Shown in pieces: positions 6,354 to 34,073 of a stretch of DNA of 40,929 bases. This stretch comes from a virus. The position numbers and the translations under genes were made by a program. The stretch covers positions 1-40,929 of IMG/VR virus record IMGVR_UViG_3300025133_000256; one strand, 5' to 3'. Each line of letters opens with the position of its first letter. The stretch's first letter is position 1. A model generated the notes under the pieces. It was not told the origin of the DNA. It was given only the letters and a program-made list of their open reading frames with translations, and made no database searches.

Positions 6354-8249
6354 ATGGCACGGAAGAGCCGTTCAGAGCGTTACGAGAACACTAAAGAACG
6401 CTTAGAAATGGCGAAGCGTTGGCGCCACGACGAGGGTCACGAAACTAAGTGGCGGCGCATGATCGACCTGTACCGTGGGAAGACCTACTGGGATATAGGC
6501 GGTATCGGCACTCCTTCCGACCGCATCTCGGTCAATTTGGCGTTTTCTACGATTAACGTGATCGCTCCATCTGTTGCGGTTAACCATCCGAAGATTACGG
6601 TGATCGCCAACAGGGAAGAAGACGCCGACCGTGCCGTTTTTGTTGAGGCTATCGTCAACTATTTGTGGCGGCATCACGACTATCGTAAGCCGTTCCGCCG
6701 CACGGTTAAAGACTTTCTAATTTTGGGCCACGGCTGGATGAAGGTCGGGTGGAAGTTCGTTGAGGAGGAGCGTGAACGGTCAGAAGACGAAATAGGGGGA
6801 GACTACGCTGCCGCACAGATAGAGGTAGCCGACTTTGGTTACGAAAATCCTGAAATGGCGGGAGAATTGCCAACGGATCAGGAAATGCAGGATTCGATTC
6901 CGTTTACACAAATGGAAATCGTGGAAGATCAGCCATTCGTGGAGCGCATTTCACCGTTCGACATGTTTATCGACCCTGAGGCAACCTGTTTGGAGGATGC
7001 CAAGTGGATTGCGCAACGGATTGTGCGTCCGATTGAAGAAGTTCGGCGCGATAAGCGGTTCCGTAAGGGTGTCCGTCAGAATCTGCAAGCCGATTCGGGC
7101 TTGAAGGTACGTTGGGAAAACGACGACGAGCGTGACAAATACTCTGACCTGATTGAACGGGTTACACTGTACGAATACTACGATCTGGATGAAGGTTTAA
7201 TTTCGGTTTGCGCCGACGGTGCCGACGACTACCTGTTGGACCCGATACAGATGCCATACAACTTTGGGCATCCGTTTGTTCTGTTACGCAATTACGACAT
7301 TCCTGACATGTTCTACCCGATGGGCGACTTGGAGGCCATCGAGTCGCTACAGGAAGAGTTGAACAAGACACGCACACAGATGGTCAACCATCGTAAGCGG
7401 TACGCACGCAAGTACCTGTACCATGAGCGTTCGTTCGGTCCTGAGGGGCGGGAAGCGTTGGAGTCCGACGACGACGGACGGTTCGTACCTGTTGTGGATG
7501 AGAACAGGCCGCTGGGCGAGGTTGTTGTACCGTTGCCGCAGGTGCCTTTGGCGCCCGAGATGTACAATCATTCTAACCTTATCGAAAACGATGTTAACAC
7601 TGTCAGCGGTGTATCTGAATATGCTCGTGGTCAGATGCCTGAGATTCGTCGCACAGCGACGGAAGCGTCGATTATCGCAGATGCAGGCAATGCGCGTGCG
7701 TCCGACAAGTTGGCTATGGTAGAAATTTGTATCGGTGAGGTTGGCCGTCGCGTTATGCAGTTGATGCAGCAGTACATGACCCGCGACCAGATGGTTCGCA
7801 TCACGGGCAAAGACGACCAGCAATACTATGTTGCCTATACGCGGGACGACATTATTGGCGAGTACGACTTTTCGGTTGAGGGCGGTTCGACGCAGCCGTT
7901 GAACGAGACTGCTCGTCGGCAGCAAGCCATTTCGTTGATGAATGCAATTGCGCCTTTGGTGGGAACCGTTATTGATCCTGCTGAGTTGGCGCGTTACGTT
8001 CTACAGTTTGGGTTTGGGGTACAGAACCCTGAAAAGTTTTTGGTGCAACAGCAGCCGATGGCACCGCCAGAGGGTGCACCTCCCCCCGAAGGTGGAGTAC
8101 CCCCGCAGGGTATGGCACCACCGCCGATGTCGGGTGGGATGGGTCCAGCACCCCCTCCAGATCAGGTGTTTGAGGCCACGGGTGGGGTACCGCCCGAATT
8201 GTTGGCCCAGTTGCAGAATCAGATGGGTATGGAACTGCCAAATCTGTGA
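6354..8249 (+). CDS. Portal protein, 631 aa
   Basis: Dodecameric ring at the capsid vertex through which DNA enters and leaves. The N-terminal region (WRRMIDLYRGKTYWD, then RISVNLAFSTINVIAPSVAV), the acidic mid-region with SPFDMFIDPEA and later SLQEELNKTRTQM are typical of podovirus-like portals. Residues 570-620 are a Pro/Gly/Met-rich tail (MAPPEGAPPPEGGVPPQG). Length fits the family. It is followed by scaffold and capsid genes in standard head order. The next gene is preceded by a GGGACAC...TTACAAT element in a 48-base gap. Confidence 0.88.
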   Translation: MARKSRSERYENTKERLEMAKRWRHDEGHETKWRRMIDLYRGKTYWDIGGIGTPSDRISVNLAFSTINVIAPSVAVNHPKITVIANREEDADRAVFVEAIVNYLWRHHDYRKPFRRTVKDFLILGHGWMKVGWKFVEEERERSEDEIGGDYAAAQIEVADFGYENPEMAGELPTDQEMQDSIPFTQMEIVEDQPFVERISPFDMFIDPEATCLEDAKWIAQRIVRPIEEVRRDKRFRKGVRQNLQADSGLKVRWENDDERDKYSDLIERVTLYEYYDLDEGLISVCADGADDYLLDPIQMPYNFGHPFVLLRNYDIPDMFYPMGDLEAIESLQEELNKTRTQMVNHRKRYARKYLYHERSFGPEGREALESDDDGRFVPVVDENRPLGEVVVPLPQVPLAPEMYNHSNLIENDVNTVSGVSEYARGQMPEIRRTATEASIIADAGNARASDKLAMVEICIGEVGRRVMQLMQQYMTRDQMVRITGKDDQQYYVAYTRDDIIGEYDFSVEGGSTQPLNETARRQQAISLMNAIAPLVGTVIDPAELARYVLQFGFGVQNPEKFLVQQQPMAPPEGAPPPEGGVPPQGMAPPPMSGGMGPAPPPDQVFEATGGVPPELLAQLQNQMGMELPNL

Positions 8250-8986: not shown

Positions 8987-9928
8987 ATGGCAGGAAATGA
9001 CGACTTCGATCAGATTTTATCGACCACGTTGAAGAACTACATCCCTAAGTTGACGGACAACATCTTCTCTGCCCGACCACTGTTTTACGCGCTGACCAAT
9101 GGACAGACCATTCGGCGCATCAGTGGTGGTGCAAAGATCGTTGTTCCGATCATCTATGGGACCAACAGCACCGCTGCCTCGTATAGTGGATCGGATACCA
9201 TTTCCACGACTGCTCAGACTGGCATTTCTGCCGCTGAGTACGACTGGAAGCAGTATGCGGTCACTATCACGATCAACGGTATTGAAGAAGCAAAGAACAA
9301 CGGTGAAGCCGAAATCATTGACTTGCTGGAAGGCAAGATCATGCAGGCTGAGGAAACCGTCATTGAGAACATGAACACCATGTTTTGGGCAGATGGCACG
9401 GGCAACAGCAGCAAGGACTGGATTGGTCTGGACCTGATTGTTGGCAAGCCTAACACCGCCCTTGGTGGAATTGATCCAACTGATTCGGGGAACTCTTGGT
9501 GGGCATCGACGGAAACCAACGAAGGTGGTGCTTTGGCGCTTGTCACAATGGCAAATGTCTATAACACCGTTTCGGTTGGTAACGACCAGCCAACCATCCT
9601 GATCGGCACACAGGCTGTTTACGAGTCCTATGAGGCTCTGCTTCAGCCGCAGTTGCGGTATTCAGATGCTAACACGGCAGATGCTGGATTCCAGAACCTG
9701 CTTTACAAGGGCGCACCCGTCACATTCGACGGGGCAGCCACTACGGGAGAATTGATGTTCTTGAACACCAAGTACCTCCGTCTTGTGGCTCATTCGGACG
9801 TTTGGTTCAAGCCAACACCGTTCGTGCGGCCTACCAATCAGGATGCGCGTTACGCGCAGATTCTGTCGTATGGAAACTTGACTTGCAGCAACCGCGCTCG
9901 TCAGGGTTACATGCACGGCATTACCTGA
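8987..9928 (+). CDS. Major capsid protein, 313 aa
   Basis: Forms the icosahedral shell, HK97 fold. After the N-terminal helix (DQILSTTLKNYIPKLTDNIF) it has the Gly/Ser/Thr-rich loop GTNSTAASYSGSDTISTT. The spine-like helix EEAKNNGEAEIIDLLEGKIM follows, then acidic A-domain strands and FKPTPFVRPTNQDARYAQ near the C-terminus. GAAAGGGG precedes the start. Placement after scaffold and the length fit. A strong hairpin lies 10 bases after the stop, which would give the capsid mRNA a defined 3' end or stability. Confidence 0.88.
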   Translation: MAGNDDFDQILSTTLKNYIPKLTDNIFSARPLFYALTNGQTIRRISGGAKIVVPIIYGTNSTAASYSGSDTISTTAQTGISAAEYDWKQYAVTITINGIEEAKNNGEAEIIDLLEGKIMQAEETVIENMNTMFWADGTGNSSKDWIGLDLIVGKPNTALGGIDPTDSGNSWWASTETNEGGALALVTMANVYNTVSVGNDQPTILIGTQAVYESYEALLQPQLRYSDANTADAGFQNLLYKGAPVTFDGAATTGELMFLNTKYLRLVAHSDVWFKPTPFVRPTNQDARYAQILSYGNLTCSNRARQGYMHGIT

Positions 9929-10992: not shown

Positions 10993-12567
10993 ATGTCTAA
11001 ACGCGACTTCAGGTTGGCGACATTAGAATCATTTGCTGGTGGCCTGAATTTGCGGGCAGATCAGTTCGACCTTGCCGAAAACGAATCCCCCGACATGATG
11101 AACGTCAGTGTCGATCCCCGTGGCGGGGTCGCTATGCGTTGGGGCATCGACCGACGCAACTCTACGGCTTTGAGTGCCGACGTAAAGGGCATTTGGGGTT
11201 TCCATACTGACGGTGGCACGAATCAGTTGATGGTCAACTACGGTACCGCCGTTGCCCATTCTGCAACCACCAACTTTACCGCTTTGACAAATATTACGGC
11301 GCGAACTGCGGGTTCGCGCGTATACGGGGTCACGTTCAATAACGTCGCATACGGTGTCTCATACGATCAGGTATCGTTTAAGTGGGATGGTTCCACTGAT
11401 GCCAACTTGGGAACCACGATTGACGGTTCGGCAGGGAATATGCCGAAGGCGCAGTATATTGCAGTCTGGAATAACTTTGTTTGGGTTGGCAACATTGAAG
11501 GCGAAAAGTTTCGCCTACGTTGGTCGAACCTGAACGATGCCGAAAAATGGTCGGCATCCGACTATGTGGACATTGATAAGGGCGAACACGGTGACTACAT
11601 CACTGGGTTGGTTCCCCACGGCGACCGTCTGGTCGTGTTTAAGAACAACAGTGCGTATGCCGTATTCGGCTTCGACTCCGATTCTTTCCAAGTGGTTCAA
11701 CTATCGAACTCAGTTGGCTCAGTAGCACTTTCTAGCCCCGTGTCCACCCCTTATGGGGTGTTCACATGGCACGGACATCAGGGCATCTACCTGTATGACG
11801 GGGAACGGTTCCAGTGGGTGTTCAACAAGTTGCAGCCCGCTATTGACGACGGGCGCATTACGTTTACGAATCCGCCTCAGTTGGCATGGGCCAACAACCG
11901 TCTGTATGTGTCGGTTGATTGGACTGCCAGTGGTGCTTCTACAGTACGACGCACGCTGGTGTACGATCCGTCGTTGGGTGAGGGTGGGGCGTGGACGACG
12001 ACAGATATTGATGCGGGGCCGCTGTATGCGTATCGGCCTCCGAACTCTACTCCGATTGCAGTCGGTGGCTGTGTTACAAACACAGGCAGCGTTGTTCACC
12101 TTGACGCGGATGACACACGGGTTACAGACCGCTACCTTGCTTCCACGGAAGTCCACATTGATTCTCACTTTACAACCCCGTGGGTAACGACAAAGAACCC
12201 AATTGTTAAGAAACGGTGGGGTAAAGCCCGCATGGTGACGTTGGCTAAATCGGCTATTACGTTGGGTGTAAGCGTCTATCGTGACTTTGATAAGGCACAG
12301 GCGTATAAGGCATTCGACGTTGTGGTCGCGGGCCGCGACTCAACGTCTGTATGGAACACCGCTGAGTGGGATGACAACGAAGCAGGTTCAGCAGAATTGG
12401 CGTTGTGGGCCGCTGACGCAGAGGCAGTTGTGACTGATGTTAAGCGTTTGCCGACAATCGGGACAGCGCAGGCAGTAAGTATGCGGATTGACGGTCCAAA
12501 ATTGACAAATCATACGTGGGAAGTAAACGCTTTAGCGTTTACGTACCTTCCACGCCGACTAAGGTAG
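10993..12567 (+). CDS. Tail hub/nozzle-like beta-propeller protein, 524 aa
   Basis: Starts with FAGGLNLRADQFDLAENES, then NVSVDPRGGVAMRWG, a segment seen at the N-terminus of podovirus tail tubular/nozzle proteins and related beta-propeller virion proteins. The rest is rich in Trp, Gly and Asp beta repeats (YIAVWNNFVWVGN, YGVFTWHGHQGIYLYDG). No enzymatic motif is seen. It follows the adaptor and precedes the fibre, consistent with the short tail tube distal part. Confidence 0.7.
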   Translation: MSKRDFRLATLESFAGGLNLRADQFDLAENESPDMMNVSVDPRGGVAMRWGIDRRNSTALSADVKGIWGFHTDGGTNQLMVNYGTAVAHSATTNFTALTNITARTAGSRVYGVTFNNVAYGVSYDQVSFKWDGSTDANLGTTIDGSAGNMPKAQYIAVWNNFVWVGNIEGEKFRLRWSNLNDAEKWSASDYVDIDKGEHGDYITGLVPHGDRLVVFKNNSAYAVFGFDSDSFQVVQLSNSVGSVALSSPVSTPYGVFTWHGHQGIYLYDGERFQWVFNKLQPAIDDGRITFTNPPQLAWANNRLYVSVDWTASGASTVRRTLVYDPSLGEGGAWTTTDIDAGPLYAYRPPNSTPIAVGGCVTNTGSVVHLDADDTRVTDRYLASTEVHIDSHFTTPWVTTKNPIVKKRWGKARMVTLAKSAITLGVSVYRDFDKAQAYKAFDVVVAGRDSTSVWNTAEWDDNEAGSAELALWAADAEAVVTDVKRLPTIGTAQAVSMRIDGPKLTNHTWEVNALAFTYLPRRLR

Positions 12568-19067: not shown

Positions 19068-22000
19068 ATGGCGCGTCCCGTAACACCTAAAGAGGATTTT
19101 CGTCCTCGCGCTGCGGCAGCGGTTAAAAATATTAACCCACGGATGCCCAAGCGGGAAACCATGTCCATTGAGCCTCCGCCTCAAAGTGATTTACTTAAGG
19201 CTTTAGGGGTTGAACTTTCGGCTGATCCAGCCTCCTATTACAGCGGGGCTGGTTCTACTACGTGGACTCCTGCTGCGCCGATGCAAGAGTGGCGGCAGCA
19301 GCACGCGCACGACACTATGGTTGCCAACTTGGATTGGCAGGGGAAACTCGCCTACGATGTCGGGAGCGCGATGACGGAGGGTCCGTTTGCCACTGCGTTA
19401 GAGTATTTGTTGAAGCCTCTAACTGTTGCGGTTACGGGTACTCGTTTGCTTGTGGAGAATGTTCTCAGGAAGCGTCCCGAAGAGGGTGGTCTGAGTTGGG
19501 GGGATGCTTGGGACAAGATTGGGGGCACCTATACGTTTGGTGAGATGCTTGCCGATTACGACATTTGGCAGGAACCTGAGAATTTGAAGTGGGCACGGAT
19601 GGCTGGCTTTGCGGGTGATGTTGCGCTTGATCCGTTGACTTGGCTTGGCTTGGTTGGTAAGGCAATCGGTATCGGGGCTAAATTGACGGGCGAAGGTGCC
19701 CGTGTTATCAGTGGTCACGCTGTCCGTAATGCGATTATAGCCCATGTAGGCGATGATGCTGGCAAGGTGTTCGGTGGTATATTCCGAAACACTAGATTGT
19801 TGGATGATAATGTCATGCGTGGGGTTGCTGACGATCTTGTAAAGGGAACCGATAACTTTGTTACGCGGGTTTCTGATGATGTCGTTGAGTTGGATTTGAA
19901 CAAGTTGGGTGGTGTTGTGGGTCCGACCGATCCGCTTGATACTTCACTCATTATGACATTAGATAATGCTTTGATTGATGATATTACGAAATTGTATGAT
20001 GCGGGTGCCCGTGCAATTCGGCGGGGAGCGACTGCGGTCACCGACGACGAAATGCGTATCGCAGCCCGCCATATTGCCGCTAGCCAGTTGGACAACTCGC
20101 TGCGCTCACCGTCGCAGATAGCGACTCGCGCCGTTGACGATGTAACAGCAGGTACAACTAGGGGCTATACGAATCCGTGGATTGTTGCCGACGAGGTTGA
20201 AGACCTGACATTTGCATTTGGGTGGAGGGTTCCATTCACGGGTAGAGTCGGTAAGGCGATATTCCGCCACAAACTGCAACAGCCGATTGGGTTAAAGTTT
20301 TGGGGGTCTAACACGCGGGCACCGTTTATTGGTACGTGGGTACGTGGTGTGCCACAGGCTGCCCGTACTGTCTTCTTTGGTCGCAACATTATTGGCAAAG
20401 GCCCAGTTGCCAAGGCTGCCCAAATGGCTGGCAAAGCAACACAGGAGAAGGTCGGAACGGGTTACGGTGGGCTGATTGGTTGGATGAAGCGTGGTGGTCG
20501 CGCTCCTGAAATACGCCAGTTGATGAAGACGGCAATGCAGGAGGGTGACGCTGTAGGCGTTCATCACATGAAAGCGTTTTTGCACGCTGCTGGACGGGGC
20601 GACATGGCGGGGCGCGTCGTACGGCAGGAAATGTTGAGGAAGGTGGATGCCTTTTTCAAGGAAGCCGATGTGGCGGGTGCCAATAGTGCTGATTTGTACC
20701 ATGCCATCGCGGGCAGCGAGGACGCTGCCGCGAGGGTTGGTCAAGAGTTGACGGACAAGGGGCGCTTGTTGATGCGAGATTTGCGTCAGTCGGCTAACGA
20801 ACATGGGGGGCAAAACTTCCTCGGTCATTCTTCCGATTACGTTCCTCGCGTTTTGTCCGAAGAGGCACGTACCTATTTGGAGGCCAAAGGTAGGGGGCTT
20901 GTCAACAGGTCACACAAAGGCCATGCATATAAAGAGAGTGGCTTTGAACAGACACGCTCGTACATTTCTAAAGAAGAATTTGATTTCTTGGTTGATGCAC
21001 AGGTCGCCAAGGGTGCGTCACCTGCTGAAGCAGACGCAGCCGTGCGTGCGTCAGGGCGCCAGCACGACTTCTTAGGGGAAGACTTGTATAAGGCGGGTTC
21101 GGAGATGCCCAGCGGTGAGATCGCTCAAGACGTTGAGAAGCAGATCGCTGACATCATGGAGCGACATGCAATCTCCTACTCTCTGTTTGACGAAGACCTG
21201 CGGGTGGCCCTCAGCGCGTACGTTGACGCGATTTCCAAGCGTGTGGGTGAGGTATTCACTGACACGCTAATGAAGAAGCAGGGCATCTTCTTTGACCGTA
21301 CGGCAATGGCCGTTCACATCCCTGACCTCAGAATGACTGATGCTGTCATGGATGTTCGTTCAGCAGCGTCCACGCTGCTTCGTGCTGAGACAGACTTGGA
21401 TCACAAGTTGAAGGTAGCGATAGAACGCTTTGGTAAAGATCAGGCTGATGCAGCGGACTCGGTAGTGGAGGCCAGAGAGACACTGCGAGTGGCTGACGAA
21501 TCGTACAAGCGGGCTGTAGAAGCACATGACGTAAAGGCGCAAGAGTTCCTGTTGCTTGAACAGGAGGTTATGTTTATTGAGAAGCGGATTCTTGATCTTG
21601 AGGGTAGGGAGCGGGGGCTGCGTGTAGACATGGAGGGCGCTCCGTTTGAGCGCCTTGTGGAGATGGAGCGTGAGGTTCAGGAAATCGTCAAGGTGTTGGA
21701 TGATTTGTACAAGTCGAAGCCCATGTTTGAACTGGAGTTGTCAAGGTTGCGGGCGTCAACTTATGCAGTGTTGACTTTGGAAGACAAAATATACACTGTC
21801 TTTGGAGATCAGAAAACGTTTGAAAAGTTTGTTGGTGCGTTCGATGAGTACGTCGGGGGAAGCGTAGACGAGTATGCGATGGCGGCTGCGCGCGACGGGA
21901 AGAAGGGCTTCACACCTATCCGCGATACTGTTGCTCCAGCGGAGGCTGGCGTTGTTGATGAGGCTGGAAACGTCGTGTACCAGCAGGCTTCTGATGTTGT

Positions 22001-25000
22001 CGGGTGGGAGTTGAAGGTCGGGGACAGGGTTATCAACTCTGATGAAGCAACTCAGATGCTTGGAAACGTTGAAGCGATTATCGCGGACTTGGACGGTACT
22101 GGGTTGGCGAATTGGCTTGGCTTGGAAATGCACGTAAGGGCTAAGGACGCTACGGGGATTGCGTCGTCGCTGTCGCAGGTTGAGTCCGCTAGAACAATTT
22201 TGACCGATCAGGTGAAGAGGGCGGTTGAACGGTTGGAGAAGGGGATTCAGCACCTTGGCCCTGATGAACTGGTGGGGAGCATTCCTTCTCCGATGAATGT
22301 TACGGATTCAAAGAGGTTGATGCTTACCAAGTTGGACGAATTGTGGAAGCAGGCGAACGATCCAGCCAGCAATATGTTGTGGGATGACATATGGCCGACG
22401 GTGATGAAAGATCCTGAATTCGTAAATGCGGCTTCCACGTATTATGGCGTTTTCGGGGATTCGCGGGCGGTGACCACGATCCCCGACGGGTTGGCCCTTG
22501 ACCAGTACATAGAAACTGCGAAGATATCCTTGCGGGCGCGGGCGCAGCACTTGGAGACACAGTTGGCTGATGCGCCTGTGATTACGGCGACGACACCCGA
22601 AGGGTTGATCTATGAAAATTTGACCATCTCTGATGTCGTTTATATCATGCGGTTCCAAAACGAAATCATACGTGCCCCCCACGGTTCTCAGATGCCGTTT
22701 GCAACAGACAATATCCCCATCAGTAAATTGTTTGCTGATGGGGAGATTACTGGCGGTTGGCAGGGGAGCGGGGGAATGGCTTTTGCTGAAGATGCTGGTT
22801 CTGACTTGGGGGTGAAGGGCGGCTCCAACGAAGGGTACAAGATTAAATACACGTTGGCTGATGGAACCATTAAACGTTTCTACGTTAAAAAGTATGTAGA
22901 TGTTGCGGGATCATACCCTTCAGGGGCGACCGCTGATGCGGCACGCCACCGTGTAAGCGGCGAAGTTCTCGCTGATCGCCTCTACAACGAAATCGTTACT
23001 GGTAGTGCCCCTGCGAGTTGGTACGGTCAGGTGGATGAGGGCCAGTTTGCGGGTATATGGAAGGCCACCGATTGGGAAGACGAACTCGTTCAAGGCATAC
23101 ATGTGCCAATGACCCACCAGTATCGGGAGAAGATGGCGGACGGCACGTATCGTATCGTTCAAACGTACTCCGAACATCCTTACGGCGCAATATATGACGA
23201 TGTGCACGATTACATCACTCCTGAAACGCTTGACCTTACTGTGCATACGCCTATGTCTGACCTTGTTGGCGACCAGATGGCAACAGACATGCTCATTGGG
23301 AACCTTGATGCGGTCGGATTCGCAGGTGACAACATCGGTGTCAACAAGATGACGGGTGAAGTTTTTCGGTTGGACAACGGGTCAGCGTTCCACTATCGGG
23401 CACAAGGAGAACTTAAGGGCGGATCGTATGACTATAGGAACGTTGACGAAATCACAGGTTTCTTTGATTTAGCATTTGAGGGAAATCAGGCGAAGACTAT
23501 CAGCATGTGGCGGCAGTTTCGTTCTACATTCGATGACGTTGAAGGCGGGATCGGCATGGCGGCTGAGTTGTCTCGGCAAACTGATCGCCTGTTGGCTGCA
23601 CGTACCGCGAATGGGGGCTGGGCCAAGTGGGTGCGAAAGCAGTTGCCAGATGCCCCTGAAGAAGATATTCACATGTTTGTTGACTGGTTGGAAACACGCA
23701 CTCAGAAGATGGCTGAGCAATTCGGTTTGACGTACAACACGGGCGACGACATGATCGGGGAAGCCCTTGCACGGACGGGGGTTGGTCCCGCACAGATTGA
23801 TGAGGCGCTTACAGGCACTTATGGAGCGACGCAGCGAACGTCGGAGCGGTTGGGTTTGCGGGCGTGGCTTTCCCCCAAGGGTGGGATGAGTGGAGTACCT
23901 GAAAGTCAGGCGTTGGAATCGTTTACGATTACGGATGCAATTGACGAGTTGCTTCGCAACGCTGACAACGTTGGTTCGCAGGCCCGCGATGTAGAAGTTG
24001 TGAGGCATCTCTGGGATTTGCGGGAAAGCGGGATACTGCAACGCATGTTGGCATCCCGCCACGCTTTAGACATTGACGATCCTACCTTGATGCACGCGAT
24101 GTTCAGGAGCGAAATTGATGAGACAACGTTTGCGGCTGCGGAGGCAGGGCCAAAGCAGGCGAGCGATGTCGAAGACTGGATGGCGCAGTTGTCGGGAGAT
24201 GATCTGATAGAGGCGCAGATGTTGATGAAGGGGCAGGAGACTCCTGCTGGAACTGTTGATGAAGCGTTGCCGCCACTATCTCACCCATTTTGGAAAGACC
24301 CTGATGTTGCCGACACCGTTTCCCAATTTGGTAGGGACGCCGTTGAACCCGAAGACTATGCTTCGTGGAAAATTGCTGAGCAACAGCACGAAGTAGCATG
24401 GAACGTAGAAGCGGGCTATAAATCCGCGCCCGAAGCATCTGCCATACGGGCGACAGAGTTCTTGCCGAAGACAGCCGACGAGGTGCCGTGGGAGCAAGCG
24501 ACGAATCGTTACGGTGTTGTCATTATGGATGGCGTAGATTCTGTCTATTTGCGTATGCCCACTAACGATCCCCTTACAGGCCAGATCGACGGGGGTAATC
24601 GTTGGACGCATTCCTATGGAATGCAGACTCGTACCGCAGGTATGGCTGACGAGAACCCTATGCAGGTTGCTGTACGCGAGGCATATGAGCAAACGGGCCT
24701 TGATGTTGAACTTGTCGGGTTTGTCCCCGAGGTGTTTCATGGTGCTGAACAAACTCATTACTTTGTTGGACGGGTTAGGGCAGGAACCTCTTCGGGTCGT
24801 ACTGTTCCCACAAGCGACCCGCAGGTACACAACCAGTTGTTGAGGCTGAACCATGCATCAGGTCATGGTGGCTATTTCGCTCCGCATTGGCTTTTAGGTA
24901 CCAATAGTGCCAATTGGATAGATCAGTCTGCTCCCAATGCGAACATCATGGCAGTCGTGTACGACATGGTTTCCAGTAGGTACCAGCATCAATTCAGGGT

Positions 25001-28000
25001 CAACTTGCCGCATGGTGCGTCAAGTATCAAAGTGTACGGGCTTCCTGCACATGACCGTCTGCGTGCAGCGGAGGCTATTGTGAAGCAGGCCGACGGCCTT
25101 GATCCTAGAGTTCCTGAGCAGTTGACTAGGTTGCAAGGGCTTCAAGGCGAGATTGAGAATCTTCTTAGCGGAGAAGGGAACGCTGCTGGTCTTTTCGGAA
25201 CCGAGGGTCAATACAGTCACGCTACTACGGAACACGGTCAGTTCGACATGATGTTTGACATGTATGAACGTGTCCGCGATGTGGACCCTGACTTGTGGGA
25301 AGGGTTGTTGCACGATTGGCGTGCGGGTAGGGCTATCAACACGATTGAAGAAAATACTGCTGCCAGCCAAAAGATTAAGCAGGGGGCAAAGGTGGTTGAT
25401 ACGGTAACCGCGTTGGAGGCTCGCGGAGTTTTCCCTGAAGGCATGTCGTGGCGTCACAAGATGACGTTCATCGGGTGGCTTAACACGAACAGCGCATACG
25501 ATGGGAATATCAGGTCTGCGTTGCACGCAATGCATGACGGCGTTTCAGTACCTTTAGCGCAGAATCCGTTGCAGTCGCTAATCCTGACTGTGGAGGCGGC
25601 GGGTGGCAATCTGTCTCGCTACGAAATGTATACGAAGGGTTTGGATAACCTTGCCGCGCAACCCACCGCGCAACTTAAAGAGGATGTATTGACATTCATT
25701 GCTTCGATAAGCAACGATTCGTCAAAGGTTGGTTCAGGTTTCAGCAATCGGTTTGATGCGGAAGGCGCTCAGGTTCTTAATCCCTTCCTTGGACCCCAAG
25801 ATAGAACTGGAGGCCGTAATATTCTCGTCCAAATGGGCGAGTATGCGCATCAGTTTGGCGCGCAACATGCCCGTGAAACGGGTCCGATGGCGGCGAGGGC
25901 AACGTTCAAGCCAATTGACACAGTGCAGCAGTATGGGGGTCCGTTGTATACTGGGAGGACGAGGGGGTGGGCGACAGCGGAGACTCCTTCTCACGTTCCT
26001 CCTGATCCGACGGTACTGGGTGGCCCAACACCACGTTCGCCGTACGCGCAGGAACAGTTGAGGGCTGCTGTTCGTACGCACGCTCGTTTCTTGGAGGCGT
26101 ACAGGCGGTCGTTGTCTTCGGGCAGTTTGGCTAGTGACAACAACGGGTACGCTGTTTCTGTTTGGTTCAACCAAGAAAGTGCCCGTTGGAATACTGCTCA
26201 GGGCCACTCGGACAATCCTACGTTGGCTAATTTCATGTTGACAAATCCGCGCGCAATTATGCCTGACACCATACACACTGGTGGCCTCGTATCAGAATTG
26301 GATAAGTTCAGAGGGCAGACAGGTACGAGGGGCAGCGCGGAACATGATGTCTTTATGAATGCGGAACAGTTCCTGAAAGAATACGAGGAAATGGCGAACG
26401 CTCAGTTTGTGCCTCGTGAGTTTGACGAGGCACAACAGCCCGATTTGTTGGCAGCCTTGCAGCAAGAAAAGGCTGAAGTGTTGTTGGATCGGGACGCTGC
26501 CAACAAAGCACTTGTTCTGTCACGTTCAGAGTTGCAAACCGCACGTAACCAAGTAGATGCTCTCAAGAAACAACGCGACTGGGGAAGGGACCACTTCGAC
26601 CGCGCCGATGCTGCACTGGACTTGGCAGATGAGCGCGTCGCTCATGCGGTGAAAGCGCAGGAACAGTTGGAAGCGTTGCGGGTGAGTGCGGCGGCGACCC
26701 CTGACGACGAGTTGGCAGACATATTTAAAGATATAGCAGTAGCGGTGTCACACATACACATGGTTACCGTGAACCAAGTAGATCAGTCTATTAGCAACGC
26801 GCTGGCGTGGTCTATCCAAGGGCCAAAAACCGTCAAGGCAGGCGCAAGACCGTCTGATTACAAACATCAGGCTAGAATAATGGATGGCATTTTCGGGGAA
26901 GTAGGATTCCCACCTTCGGAGGTGTCAGAGGTGGGGAAAGATTTGCAGGCAGGTCTTGAAGGGATAGCAAAGATCCGAGCGGGGAAGGCTGAAGGACCGT
27001 TTGATACGTTCGTTTCTGACGACGAGTTCTGGTTCCCGCTCCGCGACTTCGCAGACCGCGAAGAAGTCCTAGAGCAACTATGGATGTCAGGGTACAAAGC
27101 CTTCGGGTCTAACTCGCAAGGACCAGAAGCAATGGTCGAAGCCATGACTGCCGTGACACGCTTCAATGCGCAGGGCGGATGGGGTGAATTCCTACGCCAC
27201 TATGACAAGGTGCACAACCTGCTTAAAGGCTACATGATTGCCAAGCCCGGTTTCCATATGCGTAACTTCTTTTCTGCAACGTTTATGAATTTCTTGCATG
27301 GTGTGAAGTTCAGTAGTTATCGTCAGTTTCAGCGTGCGTATTGGAAGTTCCAGCATGACCTTGCGGTTGAGCAGGGGATGACTCGTAGGGCTGATTCGAT
27401 GAAGGCTTCGATGAAGAAGCGTGGCATTTGGAATAATGTCAATGCTGACGATGTTGCGATTGTACGCGAGATGTATGAGGGTAACATTCTAGGTGGTTCC
27501 AGTGGTCAGGTTGCGGCAGAGTTTCTACAGTCTCCGTTGGAGCAAGGCGGGTTTCGTCGTGCGTGGGGTACGGTCAATCCGTTCAATTCGCGGAACGCTC
27601 CGTTGCGACTGTCGCGCAACGTCGGTGTTGGAACTGAAACCTATGTACGCGGCGTGTTGGGATTCGATGTCTTGAAGCATAGCAACGGCACCGTTGACGA
27701 TGCTTTCGATGCGATTACGAAGTGGCACTTCGACTATAGTGACCTGTCGGCCTTTGAGTCCAAGGTCATCAAGCGTCTTGTTCCGTTCTATACGTGGACG
27801 AAGCACGCGCTACCGTTGATGATTGAGCAGGTTGGGAAGAACCCTGCGAAGATGTCGATGTATTTGAAGGCCAAGCGCAACATTGAGCATGGACAGGAAA
27901 AGGCGGGGATTGTGCCTCCGTACTTTCTGCGACAGGGTGCCATTCAGTTGCCGTTCAAGTTCAAGGGTGAGAACATGTTTGTTCTGCCTGACTTGCCGTT

Positions 28001-28529
28001 CAAGACTCCGTTGGAGTTGATTGATCCTGCGTTGGCGCTTGACAAGGACATGTCGGTTACGGATCGTATTCAGGTCATGTTGGGTAGTGTGGGTACTCAG
28101 ATTACACCGTTGATTAAGGCACCGTATGAGTGGAAAGCCAAGCAAAATTTGTGGAAGGGTTACAACTTTGATGGTCGGTATCAGCAGGTGCCCACTGCGT
28201 ATCGAAACATTCCGTTGTTGATGCCGATGTTGGATGCCCTTGGGTTGGCTGAGAAACAAAACGATGTTTGGTTGATGCGTGATTATGAACTGCATACGAT
28301 GGGGCAGTTGTTGCCTACGTTCACGGACATGCGGCGGCTGTTTCCGTCGGAGGAAAGGTACCAGCAGCGCACGCTGTCTACGTGGATGAGTTTCGCATTC
28401 GGTATGGGTTTGCGCACTAATACTTTGGAGGAACAACGGCGTGTGATAGAGTCTGCGTACTGGCAGCAAGTGGAAAAAATGGGGGACATGCGTCAGTTGC
28501 TGCAAGAAAGCCAAAACGAAAACCCGTAG
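19068..28529 (+). CDS. Giant polyvalent virion protein, 3153 aa
   Basis: One gene occupies almost a quarter of the genome. Visible parts: residues about 180-195, AGFAGDVALDPLTWLG; coiled coil about 775-885; a kinase-fold-like segment about 1215-1445, with a Gly-rich loop and FYVKKY, catalytic-loop-like LIGNLDAVGFAGDN (near 1409) and metal-site-like RLDNGSAF (near 1434), resembling HipA/FAM20-type kinases; FWKDPDVAD near 1741, shared with the 371-residue protein at 2850; a Nudix-like segment about 1815-1990 with REAYEQTGL near 1870 (first box Glu missing); a second coiled coil about 2460-2543; and a C-terminal region with MIAKPGFHMRNFFSATFMNF and LVPFYTWTKHALPL. Such large multidomain proteins are probably packaged and ejected. 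Domain calls are by motif only. Confidence 0.7.
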   Translation: MARPVTPKEDFRPRAAAAVKNINPRMPKRETMSIEPPPQSDLLKALGVELSADPASYYSGAGSTTWTPAAPMQEWRQQHAHDTMVANLDWQGKLAYDVGSAMTEGPFATALEYLLKPLTVAVTGTRLLVENVLRKRPEEGGLSWGDAWDKIGGTYTFGEMLADYDIWQEPENLKWARMAGFAGDVALDPLTWLGLVGKAIGIGAKLTGEGARVISGHAVRNAIIAHVGDDAGKVFGGIFRNTRLLDDNVMRGVADDLVKGTDNFVTRVSDDVVELDLNKLGGVVGPTDPLDTSLIMTLDNALIDDITKLYDAGARAIRRGATAVTDDEMRIAARHIAASQLDNSLRSPSQIATRAVDDVTAGTTRGYTNPWIVADEVEDLTFAFGWRVPFTGRVGKAIFRHKLQQPIGLKFWGSNTRAPFIGTWVRGVPQAARTVFFGRNIIGKGPVAKAAQMAGKATQEKVGTGYGGLIGWMKRGGRAPEIRQLMKTAMQEGDAVGVHHMKAFLHAAGRGDMAGRVVRQEMLRKVDAFFKEADVAGANSADLYHAIAGSEDAAARVGQELTDKGRLLMRDLRQSANEHGGQNFLGHSSDYVPRVLSEEARTYLEAKGRGLVNRSHKGHAYKESGFEQTRSYISKEEFDFLVDAQVAKGASPAEADAAVRASGRQHDFLGEDLYKAGSEMPSGEIAQDVEKQIADIMERHAISYSLFDEDLRVALSAYVDAISKRVGEVFTDTLMKKQGIFFDRTAMAVHIPDLRMTDAVMDVRSAASTLLRAETDLDHKLKVAIERFGKDQADAADSVVEARETLRVADESYKRAVEAHDVKAQEFLLLEQEVMFIEKRILDLEGRERGLRVDMEGAPFERLVEMEREVQEIVKVLDDLYKSKPMFELELSRLRASTYAVLTLEDKIYTVFGDQKTFEKFVGAFDEYVGGSVDEYAMAAARDGKKGFTPIRDTVAPAEAGVVDEAGNVVYQQASDVVGWELKVGDRVINSDEATQMLGNVEAIIADLDGTGLANWLGLEMHVRAKDATGIASSLSQVESARTILTDQVKRAVERLEKGIQHLGPDELVGSIPSPMNVTDSKRLMLTKLDELWKQANDPASNMLWDDIWPTVMKDPEFVNAASTYYGVFGDSRAVTTIPDGLALDQYIETAKISLRARAQHLETQLADAPVITATTPEGLIYENLTISDVVYIMRFQNEIIRAPHGSQMPFATDNIPISKLFADGEITGGWQGSGGMAFAEDAGSDLGVKGGSNEGYKIKYTLADGTIKRFYVKKYVDVAGSYPSGATADAARHRVSGEVLADRLYNEIVTGSAPASWYGQVDEGQFAGIWKATDWEDELVQGIHVPMTHQYREKMADGTYRIVQTYSEHPYGAIYDDVHDYITPETLDLTVHTPMSDLVGDQMATDMLIGNLDAVGFAGDNIGVNKMTGEVFRLDNGSAFHYRAQGELKGGSYDYRNVDEITGFFDLAFEGNQAKTISMWRQFRSTFDDVEGGIGMAAELSRQTDRLLAARTANGGWAKWVRKQLPDAPEEDIHMFVDWLETRTQKMAEQFGLTYNTGDDMIGEALARTGVGPAQIDEALTGTYGATQRTSERLGLRAWLSPKGGMSGVPESQALESFTITDAIDELLRNADNVGSQARDVEVVRHLWDLRESGILQRMLASRHALDIDDPTLMHAMFRSEIDETTFAAAEAGPKQASDVEDWMAQLSGDDLIEAQMLMKGQETPAGTVDEALPPLSHPFWKDPDVADTVSQFGRDAVEPEDYASWKIAEQQHEVAWNVEAGYKSAPEASAIRATEFLPKTADEVPWEQATNRYGVVIMDGVDSVYLRMPTNDPLTGQIDGGNRWTHSYGMQTRTAGMADENPMQVAVREAYEQTGLDVELVGFVPEVFHGAEQTHYFVGRVRAGTSSGRTVPTSDPQVHNQLLRLNHASGHGGYFAPHWLLGTNSANWIDQSAPNANIMAVVYDMVSSRYQHQFRVNLPHGASSIKVYGLPAHDRLRAAEAIVKQADGLDPRVPEQLTRLQGLQGEIENLLSGEGNAAGLFGTEGQYSHATTEHGQFDMMFDMYERVRDVDPDLWEGLLHDWRAGRAINTIEENTAASQKIKQGAKVVDTVTALEARGVFPEGMSWRHKMTFIGWLNTNSAYDGNIRSALHAMHDGVSVPLAQNPLQSLILTVEAAGGNLSRYEMYTKGLDNLAAQPTAQLKEDVLTFIASISNDSSKVGSGFSNRFDAEGAQVLNPFLGPQDRTGGRNILVQMGEYAHQFGAQHARETGPMAARATFKPIDTVQQYGGPLYTGRTRGWATAETPSHVPPDPTVLGGPTPRSPYAQEQLRAAVRTHARFLEAYRRSLSSGSLASDNNGYAVSVWFNQESARWNTAQGHSDNPTLANFMLTNPRAIMPDTIHTGGLVSELDKFRGQTGTRGSAEHDVFMNAEQFLKEYEEMANAQFVPREFDEAQQPDLLAALQQEKAEVLLDRDAANKALVLSRSELQTARNQVDALKKQRDWGRDHFDRADAALDLADERVAHAVKAQEQLEALRVSAAATPDDELADIFKDIAVAVSHIHMVTVNQVDQSISNALAWSIQGPKTVKAGARPSDYKHQARIMDGIFGEVGFPPSEVSEVGKDLQAGLEGIAKIRAGKAEGPFDTFVSDDEFWFPLRDFADREEVLEQLWMSGYKAFGSNSQGPEAMVEAMTAVTRFNAQGGWGEFLRHYDKVHNLLKGYMIAKPGFHMRNFFSATFMNFLHGVKFSSYRQFQRAYWKFQHDLAVEQGMTRRADSMKASMKKRGIWNNVNADDVAIVREMYEGNILGGSSGQVAAEFLQSPLEQGGFRRAWGTVNPFNSRNAPLRLSRNVGVGTETYVRGVLGFDVLKHSNGTVDDAFDAITKWHFDYSDLSAFESKVIKRLVPFYTWTKHALPLMIEQVGKNPAKMSMYLKAKRNIEHGQEKAGIVPPYFLRQGAIQLPFKFKGENMFVLPDLPFKTPLELIDPALALDKDMSVTDRIQVMLGSVGTQITPLIKAPYEWKAKQNLWKGYNFDGRYQQVPTAYRNIPLLMPMLDALGLAEKQNDVWLMRDYELHTMGQLLPTFTDMRRLFPSEERYQQRTLSTWMSFAFGMGLRTNTLEEQRRVIESAYWQQVEKMGDMRQLLQESQNENP

Positions 28530-28548: not shown

Positions 28549-29298
28549 ATGAAGTACGTATCGCGCACCCAATGGGGTGCGCTGGACACAGGGAAGCCCC
28601 TCAGAGCCTTCAGGAAGGCTCCTCAGGGCATCGTGGTGCATCACACGACAGGAGGTACCTCCAACCCTGCGGAGCGTGTCAGAGGCCACGACAGATACCA
28701 TGTTCATACGCGGGGGTGGACAACTATCGCATACAATTGGTTGGTGTCGGGTGACACGGGGGAAGTCTTTGAGGGTCGCGGCTGGCATGTAGGCGGTGCT
28801 ACACGCGGCTGGAATTCAAAGACTATTGCGATCTCATACATCGGGTCGGGAGATGACCTGACGGAGAAGGGGAAGGCTGCTATCCGTACAGTTGTGGACG
28901 AGATACAGCGCAAGTATGGGGGGAACCTGTGGATCAAATGCCACAGGGATTTCAAGAAGACCTACTGTCCCGCAGACGTACTCGCTAAGTGGATCAAAGA
29001 GGGTATGCAGGAGGAGGCAGAGAACCCTGCGGGTGTGGATTGGGACGGAATCGTCAAGTATTTAATAGACGTTGGTGCGAAAGTGCTGGCGCAACGTCCG
29101 TTGCGTAAGGGTTCTCGCGGCAAGTATGTGTCTATGGTACAGTCGCGGTTGAATGAGCGAAGCGGTGCTGGGCTGACTGTGGATGGTTCGTATGGACGTA
29201 AGACGAAGCGGGCGGTGTGGAAGTTTCAGTCTAAGTATTCGATCAAGGCCGACGGGATCGTCGGCCCGACAACATGGAGATACCTATGGGTAGTCTAG
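28549..29298 (+). CDS. Endolysin: N-acetylmuramoyl-L-alanine amidase with peptidoglycan-binding domain, 249 aa
   Basis: Cuts the amide bond between MurNAc and L-Ala of peptidoglycan. The N-terminal Amidase_2 domain spans about residues 1-150, with zinc ligands His31 or His32 (VVHHTTG), His132 (KCHRDF) and Cys140 (TYCPAD). The C-terminal PG_binding_1 domain, about 178-249, reads LRKGSRGKYVSMVQSRLNE, VDGSYGRKTKRAV and DGIVGPTTW. GGAGG lies 11 bases ahead of the ATG. No signal peptide is seen, so export needs a holin; a small membrane gene overlaps its end. Confidence 0.92.
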   Translation: MKYVSRTQWGALDTGKPLRAFRKAPQGIVVHHTTGGTSNPAERVRGHDRYHVHTRGWTTIAYNWLVSGDTGEVFEGRGWHVGGATRGWNSKTIAISYIGSGDDLTEKGKAAIRTVVDEIQRKYGGNLWIKCHRDFKKTYCPADVLAKWIKEGMQEEAENPAGVDWDGIVKYLIDVGAKVLAQRPLRKGSRGKYVSMVQSRLNERSGAGLTVDGSYGRKTKRAVWKFQSKYSIKADGIVGPTTWRYLWVV

Positions 29299-31013: not shown

Positions 31014-31409
31014 TCACACTTTCGTAGCGTCGATGTGAACGACCTGCTGGTCGTTCACGATAATACCAGCACGTTGAATACCATCCAAAGCCAACTTCAC
31101 ATAGTTGTCCAAGTCGCCACGCAAAGGAGTAGACCAATCCTCCACTGGCGTGATGGTAACCGCTGTATGTTCTTCCGTGAAGATCAACTCTACCCGAACT
31201 GGTCCGTCGAAGACGGGAGCGTCTTCTCCTACAGCCACAGCATACTCCGCCTCCGCGCGTACAGTCGTGGCAGGGGTGTACACACGACCCTTACGGGACA
31301 TACGAGGACGCCCCTTAGGCAAGGGGCGCCCCTCCACCAAGAACGAAAACTCAGTGGACGGTTGCACGTTGCTGTGCGTCGGTAACGAGTCGTTCGACTT
31401 GTCGGTCAC
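31014..31409 (-). CDS. rusA: RusA-like Holliday junction resolvase, 131 aa
   Basis: Cuts four-way junctions and branched replicative DNA, probably before packaging. PLPKGRPRMSRKGRVYTP and RGDLDNYVKLALDGI followed by VNDQQV contain the conserved RusA Asp residues (DLDN, and D of VND). I use the GTG at 31409, which has AGGAAGG at seven bases; a TTG farther upstream would put that site inside the gene. It overlaps the primase gene by 59 bases. It contains a 10-bp palindrome at 31035-31058 and another at 31309-31328. Confidence 0.85.
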   Translation of the reverse strand: MTDKSNDSLPTHSNVQPSTEFSFLVEGRPLPKGRPRMSRKGRVYTPATTVRAEAEYAVAVGEDAPVFDGPVRVELIFTEEHTAVTITPVEDWSTPLRGDLDNYVKLALDGIQRAGIIVNDQQVVHIDATKV

Positions 31410-32361
31410 AGTCTTGCCTTCCTGCAAACTTCGGTCCTTCGGCCCACCATGTACCTAGACGGGAATCCAAGTCCTTCGTCCATACCAAGATGTCGGTTGC
31501 TCCGTATCCTGCTTCCCACATAGCGCGAGCGAACCTGTTGAGGAATCCATGTCGTCCTCTGCCAGCGCCATGCGACTGAGTGTAGTACGAATGGGGACCG
31601 TCGTCGTACATCCTGCGTGCCACCCCTCGTAGGCGGGTGCCGTCAATCTTCATCAATGGCTCACGCGAGTACACTCGGGCAGGTGGCAGGTCAGGTGCTA
31701 CCCACAAGGCTGCTGCAATTTCCAACAGGTCAATCTTGACACGGGTATTTTCGGCGTCTATCACAAAGTTGTAGTAGTCAATCGGGTACCCGTTGTCGTC
31801 CACCATTTCCTGACGACCTTCAGGTCTAGCGCCACCATACGGTAGACGCATGTAGTTGCCCGGTGGACCGGGCAACGAGTCTTGCTTGGGGTACACGGCA
31901 TCGTATTTGATGCCAGCCATCTGGCACACCGCCTGCAATGCTCGTCGCATCGTAGGCGCTTCAACCCAGTCTTCGGCAAAGACCCATACGTGACAGCCCT
32001 TGGAGCGAGACAGTTCCACCCATCCCTGCATCGCTAGCGCCTGTAGCACGGTGGCTACGTTCTGCGCGTAGATGAGCGAGTCGTCGCCTTCGTCAATGTC
32101 GATGGCACCCCACATGCACTTCCACAATTCGGGTTTCATGTCAGGGTAAACTTTATGCCCGTCAACCTCTCGCCACCCACCGCATCCAGCGGCGTGAGTT
32201 TCTTCAGGGTCGTACACCATTGGGTACACCCCGATCATTTCCTCACCGCTGCGGTGGCGTGAAATCAGGTGTCGGTCTACGTGTTCCCATACACACCCGC
32301 CAGCGTCGCTGCCGTATGCGTATGGGAACCCTTCAAATAATTTCCAGATTGGTTCAGACAT
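31351..32361 (-). CDS. Archaeo-eukaryotic-type primase (AEP), 336 aa
   Basis: Makes primers for phage replication. WGAIDIDEGD (Asp88, Asp90) is the DxD metal site, SRSKGCHVWVF at 118-128 is the SxH motif with His124, and GNYMRLPYGG near 168 follows the third motif. Cysteines around residues 23-82 could bind zinc. The C-terminal half (LNRFARAMWEAGYGATDI) is helical. Its start lies inside the last codons of the ATPase gene (ATGTCTGA), so the two are coupled. Contains a GTTGCCCGG/CCGGGCAAC palindrome at 31855-31876. Confidence 0.8.
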   Translation of the reverse strand: MSEPIWKLFEGFPYAYGSDAGGCVWEHVDRHLISRHRSGEEMIGVYPMVYDPEETHAAGCGGWREVDGHKVYPDMKPELWKCMWGAIDIDEGDDSLIYAQNVATVLQALAMQGWVELSRSKGCHVWVFAEDWVEAPTMRRALQAVCQMAGIKYDAVYPKQDSLPGPPGNYMRLPYGGARPEGRQEMVDDNGYPIDYYNFVIDAENTRVKIDLLEIAAALWVAPDLPPARVYSREPLMKIDGTRLRGVARRMYDDGPHSYYTQSHGAGRGRHGFLNRFARAMWEAGYGATDILVWTKDLDSRLGTWWAEGPKFAGRQDCDRQVERLVTDAQQRATVH

Positions 32362-33352
32362 CGAAGCCGTCCAAGTTCATCTGCTCCCACGTTACGCCCG
32401 GTTCCAGTAGTCTGCCACTCGGGTGGATGGTGAGGTTCACCTCTGCCTTTTCACCTTCGCCTGCCTTGTTCTTGTGTAGGCCCACGCTGACTTCATCTTC
32501 GTAGTAGCGGCGTACGTCTTCCTCTAGGCTAACGTCGTCCCATCGGCGCCATGTTTCTATGACGAAGTGGCTTTCGCTGGTGGAGGCGTATCGACCTGAG
32601 TCGATGCCGCCTGCTCGTCCGCGATTGCCTGCTCCTCTGCCTGATTGGTGGACTACGACTCCGATTACTCGCCAGTCGGATACCAGTTGCTTGAAGGATT
32701 CAATTTTTGCTTGCACGCTGGCGTGGTCATTTGGTCCACCTCCACGTATTAATTCTAAATAATCATATACAAGCACCTGTGGACGTTGACCGTCCCACAG
32801 TTGCGCCGACGCAATCCGCATCGCCTTGTCCAGATCATCCACAGACATACCCGTGGACTCAAAGTGCAGGTTGGTTTCATTCGCCATGATCTCGCTTGTG
32901 CGCTCCCATGCCACTTCGTCACCACGGATAAGGCGACCGAGCCAATCCTTCTGGCTGATCTCCAAACGCATAGCCGTGTACCGCCCCCAAAACATTGATT
33001 CAGTTTCATCGGGGCTAACCCACAGCGTCCTGTGGTTGCGGTTACGTGCAGCCATGTTCATAGCCAGCAACGTCTTACCAGTGTGCGTCTTGCCGATCAG
33101 GGTCACCAACTGACCTGCACGGGCACCACCTAGCGTGGCTTCGTCAAACCCTCGTATTCCAAACTTCCATTCTCCTCCTGCACTCAGGTCTGTTCGCATC
33201 CGTGACATTTGCTCAGTCTTGGGGGTGTACAACCGCTTCAAGTCAGCAGATGTAATGCCCTCAATCTCAGCCGCCGCTGGGGCGGGAGCAGCCTTAGCCG
33301 CTCCCGCCCCTACCAGCCTCATTGCGTCTTCAAGGCTTAGACGCTCAGGCAA
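32354..33352 (-). CDS. RecA/DnaB-fold replicative ATPase/helicase, 332 aa
   Basis: Hexameric RecA-fold ATPase. GKTHTGKT at 87-94 is Walker A, VSPDETES near 112 a motif 1a region, VLVYDYLELI at 193-202 Walker B, and VVVHQSGRG later a sensor-like strand. It resembles phage DnaB/RadA-type helicases but lacks a long N-terminal domain. I set the start at TTG 33352, overlapping the previous stop; an ATG at 33322 is the alternative and neither has a strong ribosome site. It precedes the primase gene, giving a helicase-primase pair. Confidence 0.75.
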   Translation of the reverse strand: MPERLSLEDAMRLVGAGAAKAAPAPAAAEIEGITSADLKRLYTPKTEQMSRMRTDLSAGGEWKFGIRGFDEATLGGARAGQLVTLIGKTHTGKTLLAMNMAARNRNHRTLWVSPDETESMFWGRYTAMRLEISQKDWLGRLIRGDEVAWERTSEIMANETNLHFESTGMSVDDLDKAMRIASAQLWDGQRPQVLVYDYLELIRGGGPNDHASVQAKIESFKQLVSDWRVIGVVVHQSGRGAGNRGRAGGIDSGRYASTSESHFVIETWRRWDDVSLEEDVRRYYEDEVSVGLHKNKAGEGEKAEVNLTIHPSGRLLEPGVTWEQMNLDGFDV

Positions 33353-34073
33353 TTGCCGCCAACCAGTTCTGCGGGTCAATCGCTTCTGGACGCTCACCCC
33401 ATGTGAATGGGCTGTGCTTGACCAGCCCACCGAAGTAACCGCTCTTGTTGGCAAGCGTGTGGTTGCCTTCACCCTGAACCACGGTATGTGTACCGTCTTC
33501 GTTCAGGGTAGTGCCACGCTTAATCTTGAAGTCACCAAGTCCGCACTTGCCGTTCTTGGTGATGGGAATGTCCTTGCCACGCATGGACTCTGCCCAGTAG
33601 TCGTCAGGGAACTGACGGCTACCTGCGGCGAACAACTTTCGGATCGCCTGATTGTCCATGAACGCTGACTGCTGTGACGCATACTCAATGCCAATGGCAC
33701 GTTCATGCATGAACAGTTTGTTGACTGCCGCATACTCGCTGTCGTCAATGTACAACGACGGCCTACCCGACGGCGCAGCCTGCTGCACAGGCTGTGCCTG
33801 CGGGAAGGCTTCCACGACGGTCGCTATGGCAGTCGCTGTTGCATCCGTTACGTTGACGGCAGGCTGTACGTCTGCGACTGGCTGATCCAGCAACGTCCGC
33901 TTCACCTCCGACAACCCTTGCGCCAGAGCGATAGCGTTATCTACTGCCATCGTCACGGCCACACCTTCGTCGCCGTTGTTGATTTCAGCGACGGTCAGTT
34001 CAACCGCAACCTTCATCAACACCTGCGCTTCAATTGATGCCCTTTCACTAGGGCTTAGTGGCGTAAATGCCAT
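33345..34073 (-). CDS. Hypothetical recombination/replication accessory protein, 242 aa
   Basis: ATG at 34073 overlaps the TAA of the Cas4-like gene (TAATG) and has GAAAGGAAA upstream. Residues 1-60 are helical (SPSERASIEAQVLMKVAVEL), followed by an Ala/Val/Thr linker with PQAQPVQQAAPSGRP and a C-terminal Gly-rich beta part (NGKCGLGDFKIKRGTTLN, GYFGGLVKHSPFTWGE). No family is recognised. Its place between nuclease and helicase would fit a ssDNA-binding or adaptor protein, but that is inference. Confidence 0.65.
   Translation of the reverse strand: MAFTPLSPSERASIEAQVLMKVAVELTVAEINNGDEGVAVTMAVDNAIALAQGLSEVKRTLLDQPVADVQPAVNVTDATATAIATVVEAFPQAQPVQQAAPSGRPSLYIDDSEYAAVNKLFMHERAIGIEYASQQSAFMDNQAIRKLFAAGSRQFPDDYWAESMRGKDIPITKNGKCGLGDFKIKRGTTLNEDGTHTVVQGEGNHTLANKSGYFGGLVKHSPFTWGERPEAIDPQNWLAAIA

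Follow-up and report, generated by a model that had tools for sequence, protein, structure and literature searches.

A giant late protein of an IMG/VR virus combining a predicted HipA/actin-fragmin-kinase-like domain with an optional Nudix insert

The giant gene and its reading frame

The window analysed here is the whole 40,929-base IMG/VR virus record IMGVR_UViG_3300025133_000256 (positions 1 to 40,929), which encodes a giant multidomain protein with a kinase-like domain, a Nudix-like insert, and a strongly conserved C-terminal module (Table 1). The frame opens with the ATG at 19068, runs uninterrupted for 3153 codons, and closes with the stop codon ending at 28529, occupying 9462 of the 40929 bases, or 23.1% of the record. 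An earlier note on this DNA, made from the sequence alone, had described nearly a quarter of the genome as a single gene, and this was confirmed down to the exact coordinates. The gene lies in the late block, between the structural genes and the endolysin gene. The motifs quoted in the same note are all present in frame, namely GNLDAVG at residues 1411-1417, DNIGV at 1421-1425, and RLDNGSAF at 1434-1441, proposed there as a HipA/FAM20-like catalytic pattern, together with the Nudix-like REAYEQTGL at 1870-1878. The kinase motifs are not a chance resemblance, since they are invariant across the giant family as well as in unrelated phage proteins.

Table 1. Features of the window and of the giant protein, with positions counted along the record
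Feature	Position	Strand	Basis or remark
Giant multidomain protein, 3153 aa	19068..28529	+	Single open frame; full-length marine viral relatives
N-terminal half, residues 60-1010	19245..22097	+	Family-wide conservation; not assigned to a known fold
HipA/CtkA/actin-fragmin-kinase-like kinase domain (predicted), residues ~1214-1580	22707..23807	+	AlphaFold2, VIA-align, invariant residues
Linker, residues 1581-1790	23808..24437	+	Sub-lineage-specific, nearly neutral
Nudix-like domain, residues 1805-1910	24480..24797	+	Pfam NUDIX and PDB profile matches
Conserved domain of unknown fold, residues 1911-2150	24798..25517	+	LNH..W.D..N..IKVYGL
C-terminal module, residues 2640-3153	26985..28526	+	Highly conserved; probable particle-anchoring part
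Upstream late protein, 1009 aa	16033..19062	+	Ends 5 bases before the giant gene
Endolysin, Amidase_2 and peptidoglycan-binding domain	28549..29298	+	Directly 3' of the giant gene
Large terminase, split	4246-5792 (ATPase part 4246-5133, nuclease part 5127-5792)
Portal protein	6354..8249	+	SU10/P22-like
Scaffold	8298-8957
Major capsid protein	8987..9928	+	PHROG 9953, E 3.2e-70
Protein matching PHROG 511 'internal virion protein'	10993..12567	+	E 1.3e-9

Kinase domain

The AlphaFold2 model, built from 24 aligned relatives, has predicted local distance difference test (pLDDT) scores mostly of 70-90 over residues ~1214-1580 and shows, by comparison with VIA-align, the two-lobed fold of the HipA/CtkA/actin-fragmin kinase group. 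Its top structural neighbour is CtkA of H. pylori (3akk; Z 14.8, 240 aligned, root-mean-square deviation 4.2), followed by CotH (Z 13.3), MavQ (12.6), actin-fragmin kinase and PI4KII (11.8 each), Fam20 (11.5), and HipA (3dnu and 4pu5; 10.5-11.5), while VPS34/PI3K and the conventional kinases score below these at about 8-9. Foldseek alone returned weak kinase matches of several groups, which were separated by VIA-align.

The domain carries a Gly-rich loop (GGSNEG, 1251-1256), Lys1274, the alpha-C Glu1299, a catalytic loop N1412-L-D1414, Asn1422, and the metal-binding Asp1436, residue numbers being alignment positions plus 1184; the full canonical catalytic set (K1274, E1299, D1414, N1422, and D1436) is thus present. 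N1254, K1274, E1299, N1412, D1414, N1422, R1434, D1436, and G1438, among others, are invariant in the alignment of the marine family, and the K, E, N-x-D, N, and D positions stay so after ten outside relatives of 23-31% identity are added. Predicted fold and invariant catalytic residues together support the HipA/FAM20-like kinase proposed in the earlier note.

In the marine copies, scans with Pfam and PHROG gave no match to a kinase model (NCBIfam was scanned with the relatives from prokaryote genomes only). A profile of the marine sequences found no credible match in the PDB, and a joint profile of marine and outside sequences, run against 177635 PDB sequences, found one protein, actin-fragmin kinase (1cja; E 0.007), in an alignment that runs through the catalytic loop.

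The ratio of nonsynonymous to synonymous substitution rates (dN/dS) for the kinase is 0.25 when the window is compared with its closest relative, and three further pairs gave 0.19-0.30; the adjoining linker has 0.96 (kinase vs. linker, Fisher p 0.0016). Judged by these substitution patterns, the kinase is under purifying selection, and the window copy looks fully functional from its residues and model. In the 3505-residue IMG/VR relative L151, the catalytic and metal-binding Asn and Asp have been lost (HQDVMGLDLR-HLGL, RLSVEKTF), which would make it a natural pseudokinase version.

Nudix insert

The box in the window reads G1851-x10-E1862-x7-R1870-E1871-A-Y-E1874-Q1875-T-G1877-L and departs from the canonical G-x5-E-x7-R-E-U-x-E-E-x-G-U in its G-x10-E spacing and in its last Glu, which is replaced by Gln (codon CAA, vs. 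GAA in the relative L108, where the motif is REAYEETGL). Pfam NUDIX matches the window segment weakly (E 6.7e-4, under the gathering score) and is found in seven of the 24 family members, with a best E of 2.4e-11; searched against the PDB, a profile built from seven members picks up solved Nudix enzymes, Ap4A hydrolase among them, at 2e-7. Since the best relative and the family profile match at these levels, the motif is not a chance one, and the homology and fold named in the earlier note were right, the Nudix part of the AlphaFold2 segment model itself having no resolved fold. The boxes of L109 and L121 are perfect, and that of L127 is nearly so. The Nudix domain is an optional insert that is missing from most family members, and L116 and L145 carry degenerate versions of it.

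In MutT, the last Glu of the box is a metal ligand, and its change to Gln cripples the enzyme. The dN/dS of the segment is 0.88 in a small sample; its difference in constraint from the kinase is suggestive only (p 0.08), while that from the C-terminus is clear (p 0.003). Because of the Glu-to-Gln change and the weak constraint, Nudix activity is doubtful in the window phage, though likely in relatives. The hydrolysis of nucleotide signals, also put forward in the earlier note, is accordingly the doubtful part of that proposal for a protein whose Nudix domain is an optional, altered, and weakly constrained insert.

C-terminal module and the domain at residues 1911-2150

The C-terminal ~510 residues have a mean column identity of 63% over 29 relatives and a dN/dS of 0.14. 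Homology links them to the terminal part of a podovirus late protein, that of MW202803 (hhalign 1.5e-21), a stretch of ~60 residues matches the solved structure 9k3a of a phage 'Tail protein' (E 5.6e-4), and PHROG 19395 'tail' is matched in 23 of the 24 members; on account of these three relationships, the module is probably the part that anchors the protein in the particle. The C-terminal motifs had also been described as membrane-proximal in appearance, which is not supported: the Kyte-Doolittle mean stays at or below 1.26 in every 19-residue window, and neither transmembrane nor membrane-proximal segments were seen. Coiled coils look plausible by eye, and a simple test of heptad periodicity gave non-significant values of p 0.07 and 0.32.

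The domain following the Nudix position is common to the whole family, with or without the insert, and begins with L-x-H-x-[ST], followed by W-x-D, N, and IKVYGL. Its AlphaFold2 model is of low confidence (pLDDT 55.8). The start of this domain is reminiscent of the H-x-T-like beginnings of ADP-ribosyltransferases (ARTs), a likeness that is unproven; PDB profile and hhalign searches for a hidden ART gave nothing.

Giant family in marine viruses

At least 30 homologues of the giant protein, 2575-3590 aa long, were identified in marine virus contigs of IMG/VR. The major capsid protein (MCP) of the window has hundreds of relatives in IMG/VR, 80 of which were fetched, and their records encode giants of the family. 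The closest, L108 and L085 (3167 aa), share 89-91% identity with the window protein, and the other giants roughly 25-40%. Three layers make up the family architecture: a very conserved C-terminus, a conserved kinase and N-terminal half, and variable segments between them. In the N-terminal half, there is a PHROG 36598 match at residues 169-221 (E 3.6e-5), overlapping a stretch at 177-223 that can be aligned to the MW202803 protein. The linker, whose dN/dS given above refers to a 90% identical relative, is unaligned in most relatives.

A PDB sequence search with the whole protein gave only chance matches to antibodies. When most of the protein was searched by tblastn against cultured phages, the single match, to Touem01, fell within the kinase and thus gave entry to a wider kinase family.

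Kinase relatives outside the marine giants

Through Pseudomonas phage Touem01 and the IMG/VR loci L194-L196, the kinase was traced to cultured phages including ST4, phiT5282EW, Jeremy, Dolphis, fHe-Yen8-01, Mecenats66, GodonK, Phendrix, Forza, Sixama, DSL-LC01, and others, and it also occurs in plasmid records. The first scan of prokaryote genomes with the marine kinase profile found none; a rescan with a profile of the outside relatives found 55 loci/contigs, from Verrucomicrobia, Proteobacteria, Actinobacteria, Cyanobacteria, Chloroflexi, and other phyla. The marine-only profile recovers nearly all of the outside relatives at about 1e-6 to 1e-19 (scaled to 100000 sequences).

Pfam matches in 38 prokaryote and plasmid proteins were ADPrib_exo_Tox in 13, Phage_Mu_F in eight, NUDIX in eight, and Phage_min_cap2 in two, with PI3_PI4_kinase in just one (6.8e-6). 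In L194 and L196, the kinase is fused to MuF and Phage_min_cap2; in the Gordonia phages GodonK and Forza, its gene directly follows the portal gene; and a prophage-plasmid of Pseudomonas juntendi encodes a 1466-aa Nudix-kinase-ART protein, its gene placed between those for the minor head protein and the capsid. In Touem01, ST4, phiT5282EW, and Mecenats66, NUDIX is a separate gene, located two genes downstream of the kinase gene; in most of these phages the kinase gene also carries an ART. These four cases may represent one lineage. The combination of kinase and Nudix is not peculiar to the window and recurs in varying order, fused or neighbouring. Kinase-family proteins were also seen in Pseudomonas syringae group genomes (L220, L221, L223, L249, and L254), and at least some of these proteins may be prophage-encoded.

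Proposed role and alternatives

The reading that we consider reasonably probable is that the giant protein is a virion-carried, multidomain 'polyvalent' effector whose kinase phosphorylates a host protein on entry. The virus may thus inject a protein-modifying enzyme along with its DNA; we infer the packaging, the injection, the protein substrate, and the role in takeover or counter-defence. The protein would be made late alongside other structural proteins, fixed inside the particle or the tail/ejection apparatus by its C-terminal module (and probably also its N-terminal half), and would enter the cell together with the phage DNA. There, the kinase would use ATP, with Lys1274 and Glu1299 binding the nucleotide, Asp1414 activating the acceptor, and Asn1422 and Asp1436 holding Mg, and would phosphorylate at least one host protein, so that the functions or defences of the host are switched as infection begins. 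On this reading, the Nudix insert would be an accessory module, probably active in some relatives, where ADP-ribose/NAD-type or dinucleoside-polyphosphate compounds are likely substrates, and probably impaired or being lost in the window phage.

Ejection with the DNA had been raised in the earlier note, and the genomic context lends it support: the gene is a late one ahead of the endolysin gene, and in other genomes this kinase is either joined to MuF/minor-capsid domains or encoded next to the portal gene. Like polyvalent effectors, the protein is large, multidomain, encoded among virion genes, and equipped with several typical enzymatic domains (kinase and Nudix), and its kinase relatives bear ART, Nudix, and MuF domains of the polyvalent class. 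Several observations weigh against a packaged protein kinase. The mean pLDDT across the whole modelled segment is only 55, and two very close pairs with few changes have a kinase dN/dS of 0.46-0.57. The loss of Asn and Asp in L151 implies that the catalytic role is dispensable in that lineage. The window protein has no recognized MuF domain, and the PHROG labels of its C-terminus read 'tail' and come from short matches. We found no published virion proteomics or activity data for the giant family, and the kinase could act on a lipid or small molecule, as PI4K-II and MavQ share its fold.

The position of the gene in the late block would also suit a kinase that is not packaged and acts in the producing cell, for instance in superinfection exclusion or lysis timing. 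Such a role has been proposed in Gratiaviridae, whose HipA-like kinase gene lies between those for portal and MCP (PMC8008677). We regard it as rather unlikely here, as MuF/minor capsid domains, components of the particle, are fused to the same kinase family in several proteins, and as the C-terminal module joined to the window kinase has relatives among other late-block and tail proteins. That the giant is purely structural (an internal core, tape, or tail component), with its kinase and Nudix folds kept as fossils or ligand-binding scaffolds, appears improbable: the five canonical kinase residues do not vary in the rest of the aligned family, nor do they in outside relatives of high divergence, and the kinase is far more constrained than the linker, although the altered box in the window, its degenerate or missing state in many relatives, the lost kinase residues of the L151 lineage, and a C-terminal module that is by far the most conserved part would all fit a structural protein. 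Unrelated phages and prophages encode kinase, Nudix, and ART together, as a single polypeptide or as neighbours, which could instead indicate that the three form one nucleotide/ADP-ribose pathway rather than a lone protein kinase, for example a pathway that makes and erases a modification or one that destroys a defence signal. We give this little credence, since most marine relatives have the kinase without Nudix and the window Nudix is probably impaired.

Comparison with known systems

Polyvalent proteins, or virion-embedded polyvalent effectors, are a published concept (Iyer, Burroughs et al. 2017, PMC5512222; PMC9503650), and those described include ARTs and Nudix domains fused to MuF or portal (PMC5512222, PMC9503650). 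The giant protein resembles them in being very large, multi-enzyme, and encoded among virion genes, with domains that would modify host protein and nucleotides, and differs in that the marine family, in place of MuF, bears a C-terminal module of its own. The kinase of PMC5512222 is eukaryote-like, with an HxD motif and a lost C-lobe, whereas the window kinase has an N-x-D loop and retains C-terminal helices in its AlphaFold2 model; as far as it is searchable, the text of PMC5512222 contains no 'HipA' and no mention of a HipA/actin-fragmin-type kinase.

CtkA (3akk) and the HipA toxins (3dnu, 4pu5) share the predicted fold and the residues expected for catalysis, but they have 13-15% identity to the window kinase and are stand-alone or toxin-antitoxin proteins rather than part of a 3000-residue one. 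No HipB-like antitoxin adjoins the giant gene, which is flanked by the 1009-aa late protein and the endolysin. Actin-fragmin kinase (1cja), CotH (5jd9), Fam20 (5xoo), PI4K-II, and MavQ belong to the same atypical kinase fold family and differ in their eukaryotic, spore-coat, or effector contexts and in their remote sequence similarity. T7 kinase and T4 Alt, like the enzyme proposed here, are encoded by phages and modify proteins of the host early on: Alt is an ART that enters with the virion, and the T7 kinase is of a different kinase group and is not virion-borne. Both are cited in the work on polyvalent effectors (PMC5512222, PMC9503650). To our knowledge, few phage protein kinases have been characterized, and none is known to act from inside the virion.

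The Gratiaviridae kinase and phage CotH-lectin fusions resemble the window protein in being phage-encoded HipA/CotH-type kinases near portal/MCP genes; the part of the Gratiaviridae description available reports no giant fusion and no Nudix or ART link, and the kinase is set apart on that description (PMC8008677). The late protein of MW202803 (1312 aa, annotated as 'chromosome segregation') is homologous in its C-terminal ~400-480 residues and a short N-terminal motif and occupies the same place upstream of a lysis-type gene, but is without the whole ~1900-residue central block that holds kinase and Nudix.

The giant, probably virion-carried multi-enzyme protein is of a known kind, and the kinase family is the new part. 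A published description of this widespread phage kinase family was not found in the databases and papers searchable, beyond which it may be named elsewhere. One kinase domain, not covered by the family libraries searched, links abundant marine phages, cultured phages of Gordonia, Pseudomonas, and Aeromonas, and prophages of many phyla, and kinase, Nudix, and ART enzymes repeatedly travel together. We tentatively suggest, at somewhat less than even confidence, that the HipA/actin-fragmin-like kinase family is a standard virion-delivered enzyme of tailed phages, working with Nudix and ART partners; if so, the three would form one injected kit for takeover or counter-defence, of which the marine giants are an elaborate form. 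The cultured relatives GodonK and Forza make virion delivery directly testable.

Other genes of the record

The C-terminal part of the 1009-aa upstream protein has counterparts 5' of the giant gene in relatives. The large terminase of the window consists of two overlapping open reading frames in different frames, an arrangement also seen in at least eight relatives (L006, L009, L010, L013, L054, L067, L074, and L078), while podovirus MW202803 has both parts within one annotated gene. Because it recurs in these relatives, the split looks like a natural gene split or a programmed frameshift, not an error. A primase-polymerase like the AEP domain of TOTE conflict systems (31351-32361, minus strand; Pfam 1.9e-15) adjoins a divergent DnaB-type helicase (32354-33472), and a DUF932 protein is encoded at 36893-37942 on the minus strand (Pfam 3.8e-11).
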